Origin: Labilithrix sp.
GTDB lineage: Bacteria; Myxococcota_A; Polyangia; Polyangiales; Polyangiaceae
Length of the DNA stretch: 64,000 nucleotides
Assembly (NCBI GenBank): GCA_019637225.1
Contig: JAHBWC010000033.1
Location: 1 to 64,000, forward strand
Direction: 5' to 3'
Position 1 is the stretch's first letter. Each line of letters starts with the position of its first letter. Below the pieces are notes generated by a model. It worked only from the letters and a program-made list of their open reading frames with translations, had not been told where the DNA came from and searched no databases. The position numbers were made by a program, and so were the translations under genes. Shown here piece after piece: positions 13,634-18,258 of the stretch.

Positions 13634-14152
13634 ATGCCGAACCCCACTGCGCTCCTCGAGACGTCGCTCGGTAACATCACGATCGAGCTCTTCTCCGACA
13701 AGATGCCGATCACCGCGGGCAACTTCGTGAAGCTCGCGAAGAGCGGCTTCTACGACGGCCTCCACTTCCACCGCGTCATCAACGGCTTCATGCTCCAGTT
13801 CGGCTGTCCGCACAGCAAGGACCCGAGCAGCCGCCGCGCGGGCACGGGCGACAGCCCCGACGGTCCCCTCAAGGACGAGCACCCGCCGGACGCGAAGCTC
13901 TCCAACGAGCCCGGCACCCTCTCGATGGCGAACACCGGCCAGCCGAACAGCGGCTCGTGCCAGTTCTTCATCAACACGGTGCACAACTCCTACCTCGACT
14001 GGTTCACGCCCGGAAACTCGAAGCACCCGGTCTTCGGGAAGGTCATCGAGGGCATGGACGTCGTGCACAAGATCGAGAAGACGAAGACCGATCCGGGCGA
14101 TCGCCCGGTCACGCCGGTCCGCATGAACAAGGTCACCGTCACCGAGGCGTGA
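13634..14152 (+). CDS. cyclophilin-type peptidyl-prolyl cis-trans isomerase (cytoplasmic)
   Basis: The 172-residue product has no signal peptide and covers one cyclophilin domain: [14 protein letters not shown] contains the catalytic arginine, and SCQFFIN and [12 protein letters not shown] are conserved. Compared with the shortest bacterial forms it has an insertion after FGCPHSKDP (Arg/Gly/Asp-rich) that is common in many bacteria. It catalyses proline isomerisation during protein folding. It lies just upstream of the Ro60-like gene but is separated from it by a strong hairpin and 289 bases, so I treat it as a separate unit. Confidence 0.92.
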
Positions 14153-14441: not shown

Positions 14442-16220
14442 ATGACCAACACCACGAACACCACCACGGCTCTCCTCGCCGAGGCACAGAAGGGACCGGC
14501 CGAGAAGCTGCTCGACCTGGTCCTCGGCTCGTCGGCGCACCTCTGGCACAACCGGCCCGGCGTCGACGTCGGCGGAACCTGGCACGCGAAGCGCGGCGCC
14601 AAGAAGGGCGCCGTCTCGCGCGGGACGCCCGTGAAGCCCGGACTCTTCGTCCCGGCCGCGGAGCGCCTCTACGCGCAGCTGCTCGACATCTACGAGCTGA
14701 ACGCGGAGCTCATGGCGCGGTTCGCGAGCTACGCGCTCGCGGAGACCGAGTGGCGCGACCTCAAGGTCGCGTGCGCGGCGCTGATGCTCGTGCAGCCGCA
14801 CGCGGGTCAGCCGATCAAGGACGAGGGCGGAGACGTCGCCTTCCACGACGACGACTACCGCGCCGTCGGCGAGGCGATGGCGCTCTTCTACGAGAAGAAG
14901 AGCACCAAGATGCTCACGCCGAAGGCGGTCCTCCGCATCGCGGAGCTGCTCGAGACCCCCGCGGTCGCCGAGCTGAACCGCGTCGCGGGCTTCTCGGACC
15001 CCGGCTCGAAGAAGCCGCAGCTCGGCCGCTGGAAGCGCGCCGCGACGCGGTGGCTCGCGCTGCGGGAGAAGAACCTGCCCATGCTCCAGGGCCTCGTGAA
15101 GGCGGGGTACAAGGAGACGATCAAGAACATCGCGCGCAAGGCCGGCTACAAGCCGGAGAGCGCGGCGTTCTTCGAGATCCTCGGCTGGAAGCAGAAGCAG
15201 GCCGAGGGCGGCCACCGTCAGGTCGGTCTGTCGAACCTCGTGCTCCAGAAGCGCGAGCGCTTCGACGACCTGTCCGAGGCGGAGATCTGCGAGGCGATCG
15301 TCACGCAGAAGCTGTCGCACAAGGACGTCGTCGGTCGACTGCCGAAGGACGTCGGGCTCACGCCGGCCATCATGGTGGCGCTGCTCCCGTCGCTCTCCGA
15401 CCGTGACCTCCGCATGCTGACGCCCACGCTCGAGGAGCTGGGGCTCATGACCGAGCCCGAGATCCGCCAGCGCTGGGAGAAGGCGATCGCCGAGGCGACC
15501 GACCAGCGCGCGCTCAACATCGCGAAGAACGTCCGGAGCAAGGAGCTCCGGACCAAGCTCGAAGAGGCGAGCGACAACGCTGCGAAGAAGGCCGTCGCGG
15601 AAGCGGCAGCCGAGCAGCCCGTCGACGTCATGTTCCTCATCGACAAGTCCGGCTCGATGGAAGGCGCGATCGACAAGTCGAAGGAAGCGCTGGCGCGCAT
15701 CCTCGCGGGCTTCCCCGAGGAGCACGTCCACATCGCGAGCTTCGACACGACCGGGACGGTCCTCAAGCCCAAGGCGCCCACCCGCGCGGCCGTGCAGCAC
15801 ATGCTCGGCAGCATCAAGGCGGGAGGCGGGACCGTTCACGCCGCGGCGCTCCGCGTCCTCCACCAGGCGGGCGTGCGCGTCCCGGCGACGCACAAGCTCA
15901 TCGTCATCGTCGTCGGCGACGAAGCCGGCGAGGACGGCGCCGAGCTCGCTCGGGCGTTCAAGGCCTACGGCTACGACGTCGCGGCGATCGCGATGCTCGT
16001 CAACGTCTCGACCACGCGCGGAACGACCGTCCAGTCGTGCGCGCGTGCGATGGGCGTGCCGTACAGCGAAGTGCAGATCGACCAGTTCGAGGACCCGTAC
16101 CAGGTGCCTCGTGTGCTCCGCGCGCTGCTCGAAGCCCCGAAGCTGGGGCCCGGCATCGCCGCGCAGTCTGGCTGGCTCGAGCGCGTCCTCGCGACGCCGA
16201 TCCTCGCTCTGCCTTCGTAG
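14442..16220 (+). CDS. Ro60-like protein: helical (TROVE-like) domain plus C-terminal VWA domain
   Basis: I start at the ATG at 14442 (GAGGGA about 8 bases upstream) and not the in-frame GTG at 14412, giving 592 residues. Residues 1 to about 385 are almost entirely amphipathic helix, including IKNIARKAGYKPESAAFFEI and LPKDVGLTPAIMVALLPSL, consistent with HEAT-like repeats. From residue 394 there is a VWA domain with an intact MIDAS (D401, S403, S405 in FLIDKSGSM) and a later VVGDEAGED. This order matches Ro60/Rsr proteins, whose ring binds misfolded RNA and Y RNAs. The VWA call is firm; TROVE membership is inferred from architecture. It is 38 bases upstream of the next gene and near beta-grasp and E1-like genes. 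No signal peptide, so cytoplasmic. Confidence 0.7.
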   Translation: MTNTTNTTTALLAEAQKGPAEKLLDLVLGSSAHLWHNRPGVDVGGTWHAKRGAKKGAVSRGTPVKPGLFVPAAERLYAQLLDIYELNAELMARFASYALAETEWRDLKVACAALMLVQPHAGQPIKDEGGDVAFHDDDYRAVGEAMALFYEKKSTKMLTPKAVLRIAELLETPAVAELNRVAGFSDPGSKKPQLGRWKRAATRWLALREKNLPMLQGLVKAGYKETIKNIARKAGYKPESAAFFEILGWKQKQAEGGHRQVGLSNLVLQKRERFDDLSEAEICEAIVTQKLSHKDVVGRLPKDVGLTPAIMVALLPSLSDRDLRMLTPTLEELGLMTEPEIRQRWEKAIAEATDQRALNIAKNVRSKELRTKLEEASDNAAKKAVAEAAAEQPVDVMFLIDKSGSMEGAIDKSKEALARILAGFPEEHVHIASFDTTGTVLKPKAPTRAAVQHMLGSIKAGGGTVHAAALRVLHQAGVRVPATHKLIVIVVGDEAGEDGAELARAFKAYGYDVAAIAMLVNVSTTRGTTVQSCARAMGVPYSEVQIDQFEDPYQVPRVLRALLEAPKLGPGIAAQSGWLERVLATPILALPS

Positions 16221-16258
16221 ACCACCACCCCAACCCCGAGGACTTCGGGGTCCACCTC

Positions 16259-17245
16259 ATGGACTACACGAAGTTTCTCGGGAAGAAGGAAGAGGCCGTC
16301 CTCGCGTACCTCGGAGGTCCCTTTGCCCACGGCAAGGACCGCCGGGTCCGTGTGGACGCGCCTCGGCCTTCGCTCGGCTTCCATCGGTTCGCGATCGAGG
16401 GCCGCGTCGCCCGCGCGCTCGCGCCCGAGGAGTCGCCCGATCTGGCGGACCTGCCGCGCGTGCGTGGACACCACGTGCGCGGGTGGGTCACGCGCTCGTC
16501 GCTCCGCGATCGGCGCGAGCACGTGCAGGACCTCGAGCCCGTTCGCGTCCTGCCGGCCGAGGAGCCCGCGCCGCTCTCCATCGTCCGCGCGCGTCGCTGG
16601 CACTCGGGCGATCTCGTCTTCGAGTCCCTCGACTTCGACGGCGACGTCGAAGAGACCGCGCGCCTCCGCCTCGAGAAGCTCGAGCCGCTCGGAGAGATGA
16701 AGGGCGTCCCCGCTTCGCTCCGCCTCGCGTACGGCGTCGCGCTGACGCTGGCGGTCGCCGACAAGCTCGCGATCCCGCTCTCGGTGCGCGAAGCCGCCGC
16801 CGCGGGACCGCGCATCGCCGACGACGGCGAGGCCGCCGCTCGCGCGTTCGTCACCGCCGTCGAGACGCGTCGCGTCGAGGCGTCGGAGCGCGCGCGCATC
16901 CGCGCGATCGTCGAAGGACGCCGTCCGCGCGAGCCCGTCGTCGCGCGCCCGGTTCGTCATCGCGACGCCCCTACCCTGGACAACGCGCACCTTCGTGCCG
17001 AGATTGCGCTCGACGTCGCGCACGCCCGGATGCTCTCGTCGCGTAACCTCGGGAACGGAAACCTCGAGGTCGCCTTCGAGTTCATGGGCGAGCGCTTCAC
17101 GAGCGTGGTCGACGCACTCTCGCTCCACGTCTACGACTCCGGCGTCTGCCTCGCAGGCGCCGACGAGCTCGTCACCCTCGAGAGCCTCCCCGGCGTGATC
17201 CGCGAGGCCATCGAGACCGACGCGCTCGTCATCACGCGCCGCTGA
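16259..17245 (+). CDS. unknown protein in Ro60/Ubl/E1 cluster; single-Cys C-terminal domain, possible E2-like
   Basis: The 328-residue cytoplasmic product matches no family I can name. Residues 1 to about 215 have mixed content with a conserved-looking start (MDYTKFLGKKEEAVLAYLGG). The C-terminal third runs helix, two strands (NLEVAFEFMG, RFTSVVDALSL), the loop HVYDSGVCLAG and a helix (ESLPGVIREAIE). C297 in that loop is the only cysteine in the protein. The H-x-Y-x-S-G-x-C-L arrangement recalls the active-site loop of E2 conjugating enzymes, which fits an E1-like gene 430 bases downstream. The E2 idea is weak inference, because the domain appears shorter than a full E2 fold. It lies 38 bases after the Ro60-like gene, so probably co-transcribed. 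Confidence 0.6.
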   Translation: MDYTKFLGKKEEAVLAYLGGPFAHGKDRRVRVDAPRPSLGFHRFAIEGRVARALAPEESPDLADLPRVRGHHVRGWVTRSSLRDRREHVQDLEPVRVLPAEEPAPLSIVRARRWHSGDLVFESLDFDGDVEETARLRLEKLEPLGEMKGVPASLRLAYGVALTLAVADKLAIPLSVREAAAAGPRIADDGEAAARAFVTAVETRRVEASERARIRAIVEGRRPREPVVARPVRHRDAPTLDNAHLRAEIALDVAHARMLSSRNLGNGNLEVAFEFMGERFTSVVDALSLHVYDSGVCLAGADELVTLESLPGVIREAIETDALVITRR

Positions 17246-17259
17246 CGTCCAGCGCGCGG

Positions 17260-17339
17260 CGCGACGCGCCTCAGAACACGGGCGCGTCGCGACGAGACAG
17301 AACCCGAGCTCGCTCGCGACGTGGCGGCGCCGAGCGAGC
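17260..17339 (+). promoter_or_regulatory. two tandem perfect hairpins upstream of the beta-grasp gene
   Basis: Between the stop at 17245 and the start at 17356 two separate perfect stems occur: GCGACGCGCC / GGCGCGTCGC (17261-17290, extendable by one pair to 17260-17291) with a 10-base loop, and GCTCGCTCG / CGAGCGAGC (17308-17339) with a 14-base loop. Neither has a T-tract, so simple intrinsic termination is unlikely. They may mark RNA processing, a small structured RNA, or translation control of the downstream gene, whose AAGGA lies just after the second stem. Confidence 0.45.
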
Positions 17340-17355
17340 CCGCAACGAAGGAACA

Positions 17356-17604
17356 ATGACCATGGCTGTCCTGAACATCACCTACGGCGGTCTCTCCGCC
17401 GACTACCCGCTCGACGTCGACTACCCGCTGACCGATCGCGACGTCCGGCGCATCGCCGTCGAGGTCGTCCGCTCGGGCGGCGTCCGCGGCCTTCCGGTCG
17501 CGAGCCTCGGCGAGCGCGCGTTCGACGACTACGTGGTCGACCGCTTCGACACGGTCCACGGCGGACGTCGGATCTACCTGCGGCCGAAGGTCCCCTTCGG
17601 CTGA
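17356..17604 (+). CDS. small probable ubiquitin-like (beta-grasp) protein
   Basis: The 82-residue product reads as two strands (VLNITYGG, LSADYPLDVDYPL), one helix (TDRDVRRIAVEVVRSGG), a loop, and further strands (FDDYVVDRF, RRIYLRPKVPFG). That is the order of a beta-grasp fold, and the chain ends in a glycine as activated ubiquitin-like and sulfur-carrier proteins do, though with one Gly and not two. It is followed 72 bases later by a ThiF/E1-like gene, the enzyme class that adenylates such C-termini. A good AAGGA precedes the ATG-ACC-ATG start. The fold is inferred from pattern and context, not from a match to a named family. Confidence 0.6.
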   Translation: MTMAVLNITYGGLSADYPLDVDYPLTDRDVRRIAVEVVRSGGVRGLPVASLGERAFDDYVVDRFDTVHGGRRIYLRPKVPFG

Positions 17605-17617
17605 GCGCGAACCGCGA

Positions 17618-17639
17618 AGGGCGGGCTCGCGTCCGCCCT
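17618..17639 (+). terminator. hairpin plus pyrimidine tract between the beta-grasp and E1-like genes
   Basis: AGGGCGG / CCGCCCT form a 7-bp stem with an 8-base loop, followed by a C/T-only tract (CTCCCTCTCCTCTCTCC). It could attenuate transcription so that the beta-grasp protein is made in excess over the E1-like enzyme. Confidence 0.4.
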
Positions 17640-17676
17640 CTCCCTCTCCTCTCTCCACCACTCGTGAGGTGCCGCG

Positions 17677-18258
17677 ATGAAGCGTGTCGTCTTCTGTGGC
17701 GTCGGCGCGCTCGGATCGAACGCTGTCGTCGCATGCCGTAACCTCGAGGCACGGCTCGTCCTCGTCGACTTCGACCGCGTCGAGTCGAAGAACTGCCTCT
17801 CGCAGGCGTTCGTGAAGCCGTCGATCGGGAAGAACAAGGCCGACGCCCTGAAGCTCCAGCTCTCGAGCTTCTGGGGCGTCAAGGCGGAGTCGTTCGGCGT
17901 TCGCGTCGACGAGGGCAACGTCGCGACGCTCTGCGGCTCGGCGGATCTCGTGGTCGACGCGTTCGACAACGCGAAGAGCCGCCGCGTGCTCTCGGCCTGG
18001 GCGAAGAGCGCCGGCAAGCCGCTCGTCCACGCCGCGGTCTCCGCGGACGGGACGTTCGGCCTTGTCCGCTGGGACGGGCGCTTCGCCGCGGACGAGGAGC
18101 CCTCGGCCGGCGCGGCGACGTGCGAGGGCGGCGAGCACCTGCCGCTCATCGCGCTCGTCGCCTCGACGCTCGCGCGCGCCGTGCAGGACTACGTCGAGCG
18201 CGGCGCGCGGCGCGACTCCATGGTGGCGCTCTCGGGCGTGACCACCACGTCGGAGTAG
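17677..18258 (+). CDS. minimal ThiF/MoeB/E1-like adenylating enzyme
   Basis: The 193-residue protein has the E1-like core in order: nucleotide loop GVGALGS at residues 8-14, D31-x-D33 with N39 and Q43 in LVDFDRVESKNCLSQ, K52/K54 in IGKNKADAL, and DAFDN (D94, D97). Cys149 in AATCEGGEHLPLIALVAS aligns by pattern with the conserved cysteine of ThiF/MoeB. These enzymes adenylate the C-terminal Gly of beta-grasp proteins using ATP-Mg and may then form a thioester. It lacks the Zn-binding CxxC pairs and accessory domains of larger E1s. A GAGGT lies 8 bases before the ATG. Adjacent to a probable beta-grasp gene. Confidence 0.85.
   Translation: MKRVVFCGVGALGSNAVVACRNLEARLVLVDFDRVESKNCLSQAFVKPSIGKNKADALKLQLSSFWGVKAESFGVRVDEGNVATLCGSADLVVDAFDNAKSRRVLSAWAKSAGKPLVHAAVSADGTFGLVRWDGRFAADEEPSAGAATCEGGEHLPLIALVASTLARAVQDYVERGARRDSMVALSGVTTTSE

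Follow-up and report, generated by a model that had tools for sequence, protein, structure and literature searches.

The question raised by this locus is why a gene for a Ro60-like protein should sit among genes of ubiquitin-like (Ubl) type. The locus lies in a 64,000-nucleotide stretch of DNA from Labilithrix sp. (the window), where four open reading frames (ORFs), all on the + strand and here called A, B, C and D, encode a predicted Ro60-like protein, a protein with a single cysteine, a candidate Ubl modifier and a ThiF/E1-like enzyme, respectively. A first-pass annotation had described four genes on one strand with spacings of 38, 110 and 72 bases, which the ORF coordinates confirm for A-B, B-C and C-D; outside its view was a fifth gene, X, which is named from relatives, lies between B and C, encodes a JAMM/JAB protease and completes the module A-B-X-C-D. 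The reading favoured here, with modest confidence, is that of a five-gene, RNA-surveillance-linked ubiquitin-like module, often associated with tRNA arrays of large phages and Myxococcota, of which the window has a version without JAMM. What carries this reading is the predicted fold of A, the family assignments of D and X, the linkage of the genes and a relation between X and the C-terminal tail of C; conjugation and RNA binding are the activities that these would suggest. The gene set is not a chance assembly since A is 67-93% identical across 14 close homologues and the same order recurs in viral loci, and the conservation of gene order that the first-pass annotation had set as a test is also seen in other genomes.

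A Ro60-like candidate beside an E1-like enzyme

A is predicted to consist of helical repeats followed by a VWA domain, an order which it shares with the Ro60/TROVE proteins (human Ro60, Deinococcus radiodurans Rsr) together with the MIDAS residues and the predicted fold. The AlphaFold model is Ro60-like along residues 8-566 and its best PDB matches are TROVE/Ro60 structures over most of the chain, which upholds the helical-plus-VWA proposal that had been set beforehand as a point of refutation; ring closure is not certain because the pTM is 0.49. The VWA domain matches Pfam VWA_2 (1.9e-10), and the MIDAS residues D401, S403 and S405, already picked out from the sequence, show no variation among 24 bacterial and 24 viral homologues. 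A differs from Ro60/TROVE in its low identity (12-14% to Ro60 chains among the matches listed), its place among Ubl-type genes, the missing Pfam TROVE match (PF05731 is absent among its matches at E up to 10, and a family search of G000, the genome of the window, likewise gave no match) and the lack of a Y RNA, for which Rfam gives nothing credible in the window and, in three viral loci, nothing beyond tRNAs and an intron. A profile search of PDB sequences with A did not return Ro60; a profile comparison of its helical part with Ro60/TROVE gave an E of 0.006 and beat 40 of 40 column shuffles, but at an hhalign probability of about 6%. A separate TROVE-like VWA family with weak Pfam TROVE scores occurs in relatives (L045, L046, L048-L054), some of its members in genomes which also carry A (G003, G006, G009).

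By its family match (Pfam ThiF, 2e-20) and its conserved residues, D belongs to the E1-like adenylating ThiF family. The residues listed for it in the first-pass annotation hold up well, as D31, D33, N39, Q43, K54, D97 and C149 are invariant in 52/52 homologues and K52 is kept in 41/52; position 42 is never an arginine among the homologues. D matches MoeB (1jw9) at 7.9e-7, with C149 aligned to a cysteine of MoeB, and its best NCBIfam matches, the ThiF and MoeB equivalogs, fall short of the cut-offs (at best 74.9 against 159 bits). MccB is among its weaker sequence relatives and ThiF-like enzymes are able to make peptides of that kind (excerpt of PMC12250964), so that D might be an MccB-like peptide-adenylating enzyme and C a precursor from which a secreted small molecule is made. 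This is highly improbable, since C is conserved, about 80 residues long and has a conserved end with short variable tails rather than a variable core peptide, and since neither a JAMM protease nor a Ro60-like ring would be expected in such a pathway.

B, first described as an unknown protein with one cysteine, matches no Pfam or NCBIfam family above its cut-off and is not recognisably an E2. That cysteine, C297, lies in a G-x-C-L motif and is invariant in 47/47 homologues (23 bacterial, 24 viral); the AlphaFold model has a pLDDT of 79.6, with residues 296-328 under 50.

The protease gene and the end of the candidate modifier

In relatives X has about 120-160 codons. All 13 members of its alignment match Prok-JAB (best 1.4e-7), one viral X scores 17.3 against a cut-off of 25, and H53, H55, S63 and D66 are invariant in 45/45 members, as is E8 in all 42 that are ungapped there; a distant bacterial clade has one extra residue in the H-to-S spacing. 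Window positions 17121-17247 correspond to L031 9301-9427 (92%) and 17306-17420 to L031 10036-10150 (83%), the second match starting within the JAMM ORF of L031 (9640-10089), at its 3' end, and against L028 similarity after B picks up only at C. On these alignments, X has been lost from the window by deletion. No JAMM was found in G000 (8.2 Mb, 83% complete) by single-sequence search (E up to 1) or by profile.

C ends in glycine, as had been noted, its last residues reading RPKVPFG, and its start is more likely at 17362 (second Met), where most relatives begin. R74, P75, P78 and F79 are invariant in 28 members, and the PFG end is conserved in Myxococcota and less uniform among viral copies. 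Bacterial C proteins are of two kinds, those that stop at PFG and those that bear a further tail of 1-16 residues, which allows the presence of a tail to be compared with that of JAMM. The comparison covers 32 bacterial genomes and excludes two duplicates, two orphan copies and a doubtful match. Where C is tailed, JAMM is present in 24/24 genomes, at the locus in 19, of which two are truncated at a contig end, and elsewhere in the genome in 5. The eight genomes with tail-less C comprise four in which JAMM was not found genome-wide (G000, G363, G315 and G319, the last 65% complete), one in which it is internally deleted (G020) and three in which it is present (G400, G344, G252); overall, X is undeleted in 27/32 (two cut by a contig end). 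The association has a Fisher p of 2.8e-4, uncorrected for shared descent, the five cases of JAMM loss spanning three families. All 24 viral loci have JAMM, with C tailed in 18 and tail-less in 6, and their addition gives p 5.2e-4. Across the whole sample no tail occurs without JAMM but JAMM does occur without a tail, as is expected if X exposes the glycine of C and perhaps has a second task such as deconjugation. The reading of C as a candidate ubiquitin-like modifier, presumably of beta-grasp fold, is strengthened by the JAMM protease in the set and by the ready-made C terminus that accompanies its loss in bacteria.

Several other copies of C stand apart. An orphan homologue (L026:10001-10207, 50% identity) on an IMG/VR contig of 177 kb is accompanied by none of A, B, X and D within the 20 kb analysed, and a second paralogue (L037:2135-2389, G057:C231), in a genome which also has the full cluster, ends in PFAGPRSA rather than PFG. 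In two viral copies, L088:6847-7356 and L103:19717-20592, the frame extends 61 and 48 residues past the conserved Gly, which is much longer than the bacterial extensions.

Features of the module in the window
Feature	Position	Strand	Description
A	14442..16220	+	592 aa; predicted Ro60-like, helical repeats (about 19-388) and VWA domain (394-563), intact MIDAS
B	16259..17245	+	328 aa; predicted beta domain (10-124), helical middle, C-terminal alpha-plus-four-strand part; candidate transfer/adaptor subunit
B-C gap	17246..17355	+	place of X (JAMM/JAB protease gene) in relatives; X deleted in the window, as judged by alignment
C	17356..17604	+	82 aa; candidate ubiquitin-like protein, C-terminal RPKVPFG
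D	17677..18258	+	193 aa; short ThiF/E1-like adenylyltransferase with Cys149

A module shared with large phages and often set in tRNA arrays

C is present in 11/96 relatives and, by profile, in 17/377 Myxococcota genomes (G000 included in both), one of the 17, L074, being set aside as doubtful. The order A-B-X-C-D reaches distant Myxococcota families, where C is found at E 1.6e-10 to 3e-13, and L080, L082 and L084 have the module without X. Outside bacteria, the phage Rctr197k, which has head-morphogenesis and terminase-like genes, carries A (35% identity, E 4e-102), and 25 loci with A come from IMG/VR, on records of 71-619 kb whose viral status is that collection's classing. Together with L115 (a match to C) and Rctr197k, and after removal of duplicates, these make 24 distinct viral loci, 14 on records >200 kb; the remainder may be fragments. 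Every one of the 24 has A, B, X and C, and 20/24 have D as well, the genes lying on one strand and in the order A-B-X-C(-D).

Of the viral loci, 23/24 contain one or more tRNA genes and 19/24 contain at least five. ARAGORN places 41 within the 20 kb around the module of Rctr197k, the same number that RF00005 finds in the entire 197 kb, and in five IMG/VR records the counts for locus and whole record, made with two different programs, are 15/30, 19/49, 31/44, 16/55 and 24/40. Bacterial loci have at least one ARAGORN tRNA in 15/32 cases and at least three in 8/32; the 31 besides the window total 109 calls in 463 kb, the richest being Hyalangium L019 (25), L024 (24), L076 (17) and L077 (12), and one call in L031, which overlaps D, is probably false. 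In each of six whole genomes there are just 46-67 tRNA matches (E up to 1e-5). No tRNA genes were found in the 64-kb window or in the L015, L027 and L028 loci. An HNH endonuclease family (e.g. L109:9096-9650) is common to five viral loci and to L019, L076 and L077, a sign of mobility.

This setting resembles the tRNA array units described from mycobacteria, plasmids and phages, which place dense tRNA genes on mobile elements, with a proposed anti-defence role (PMC12803027), and in which HNH genes are frequent (PMC5966550); TROVE, Ro60, ubiquitin and ThiF are mentioned in neither text. Such arrays gather varied genes (excerpt of PMC5966550) and A-B-X and C-D can occur apart, which might mean that the five genes are mere neighbours, A being an RNA chaperone in its own right and B-X-C-D having an unrelated task. 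This is considered rather improbable, as the gene order is shared by viral loci of 42-65% GC and by distant Myxococcota, and C stands beside A in 24/24 distinct viral loci, most of which were found through A.

In the window A-D are flanked on one side by a cyclophilin gene (13634-14152), which is likewise upstream of A in four relatives (L015, L027, L028, L031), and on the other by a glutathione-peroxidase-like gene on the opposite strand. Five viral loci have a metallo-beta-lactamase-fold protein near the module (Lactamase_B_2; L102:18888-19838 and four others), one viral contig has a group I intron there (L112:5451-5911), and a tmRNA gene lies inside another tRNA array (L104:3264-3639).

Known relatives and a possible mechanism

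In Bil, Bub and CBASS type II conjugation a tailed modifier is matured by a JAMM protease and served by an E1-like enzyme; the present module differs in having a Ro60-like gene instead, and PADLOC E1-E2 models match the ThiF part of D only. It also shares a ThiF-family protein with the PRTRC system, yet D scores 29.7 bits against a TIGR03736 cut-off of 144.75. Closer in composition are the Ubl-E1-JAB operons described in 2006 by Iyer, Burroughs and Aravind, whose type 6d combines Ub-like, JAB, E1-like, E2-like and alpha-helical proteins and, like the module, encodes JAB, the E1-like enzyme and a small candidate modifier in genes of their own, along with a helical protein; here the helical protein is Ro60-like with a VWA domain and B is not recognisably E2-like, and the main text contains neither 'vWA' nor 'von Willebrand' (PMC1779556). 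The vWA-MoxR ternary conflict systems with FtsH, reported in 2020, couple a VWA protein to JAB, E1 and Ubl in bacteria with complex development but differ in their MoxR and FtsH ATPases, RING-type E3 and Ubl-E2 fusion; the lone 'trove' in that text is in a reference title and not a domain (PMC7159879). TROVE proteins are known in jumbo phages and Borgs (PMC7824862, PMC11208441), and Borgs, likewise large extrachromosomal elements with tRNAs, separately carry JAMM de-SAMPylases of a Ubl pathway (PMC12660748), the two not being placed together in one gene set in the passages concerned. The terms TROVE, Ro60 and ThiF do not occur in the texts PMC6409571, PMC12660748 and PMC13282480. Among the papers listed by full-text searches, which covered literature outside subscription, no title or abstract opening joins Ro60 with a prokaryotic Ubl system or describes the A-B-X-C-D set; the first-pass annotation had likewise not known the four genes as a characterised set, though it allowed for that.

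It is proposed that A, as a ring with a VWA domain, most likely holds a structured or damaged small RNA, probably tRNA. X would expose the C-terminal Gly (PFG) of C where a tail exists, in keeping with the bacterial tail/JAMM relation, and the C of the window would be made ready for use and need no processing. D, judged by its family and residues, would adenylate C, and B would most likely pass the activated C via Cys297 to a protein target at the RNA ring. The state of an RNA would in this way be coupled to protein tagging which, given the tRNA arrays, could protect translation under attack on tRNAs.

The main competitor of Ubl conjugation is a sulfur carrier role for C and D, as a pair comparable to Urm1/Uba4 and TtuB/TtuC, which serve tRNA thiolation. 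D would adenylate C to yield a thiocarboxylate for the tRNAs of the array, A would present the tRNA and B would act as transferase or acceptor. The ThiF/MoeB equivalogs as best, sub-threshold NCBIfam matches of D, the alignment of C149 with the MoeB cysteine and the maturation of some sulfur carriers by JAMM proteases all agree with it. Two points also count against conjugation as the sole explanation: the linkage to tRNA arrays fits both pathways, and C belongs to no known family, with no Pfam ThiS match in 22 members and a negative comparison with ThiS/MoaD profiles (hhalign score 10.9, against up to 18.8 in 100 shuffles). The missing ThiS/MoaD signal equally disfavours a sulfur carrier, no PP-loop tRNA sulfurtransferase occurs in four of the recurrent neighbour families, the sole ones scanned, and a VWA-bearing RNA ring is not known from any thiolation pathway; the sulfur carrier is regarded as unlikely, if a serious candidate. 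The profile searches that the first-pass annotation had called for were positive for ThiF in D and negative for TROVE in A (Pfam) and for ThiS/MoaD in C, and its idea of an RNA-linked ubiquitin-like pathway gains from the predicted Ro60-like fold, the gene order and JAMM, while conjugation and control by RNA stay conjectural.

A more specific form of the conjugation model can be offered tentatively. Ubl conjugation switched by an RNA-holding Ro60-like ring might serve in the tRNA arrays of huge phages to sustain translation against host attack on tRNAs and might have been captured by myxobacteria, the window being a domesticated version which has lost the protease and makes its modifier ready-made. 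The loss of JAMM and of the tail of C in several bacterial lineages amounts to a natural experiment, and the maturation step is directly testable. If the model is true, the module would offer a compact setting for studying how damage to RNA is converted into protein modification, and the tRNA arrays of large phages, the purpose of which is under debate, would gain a further function.

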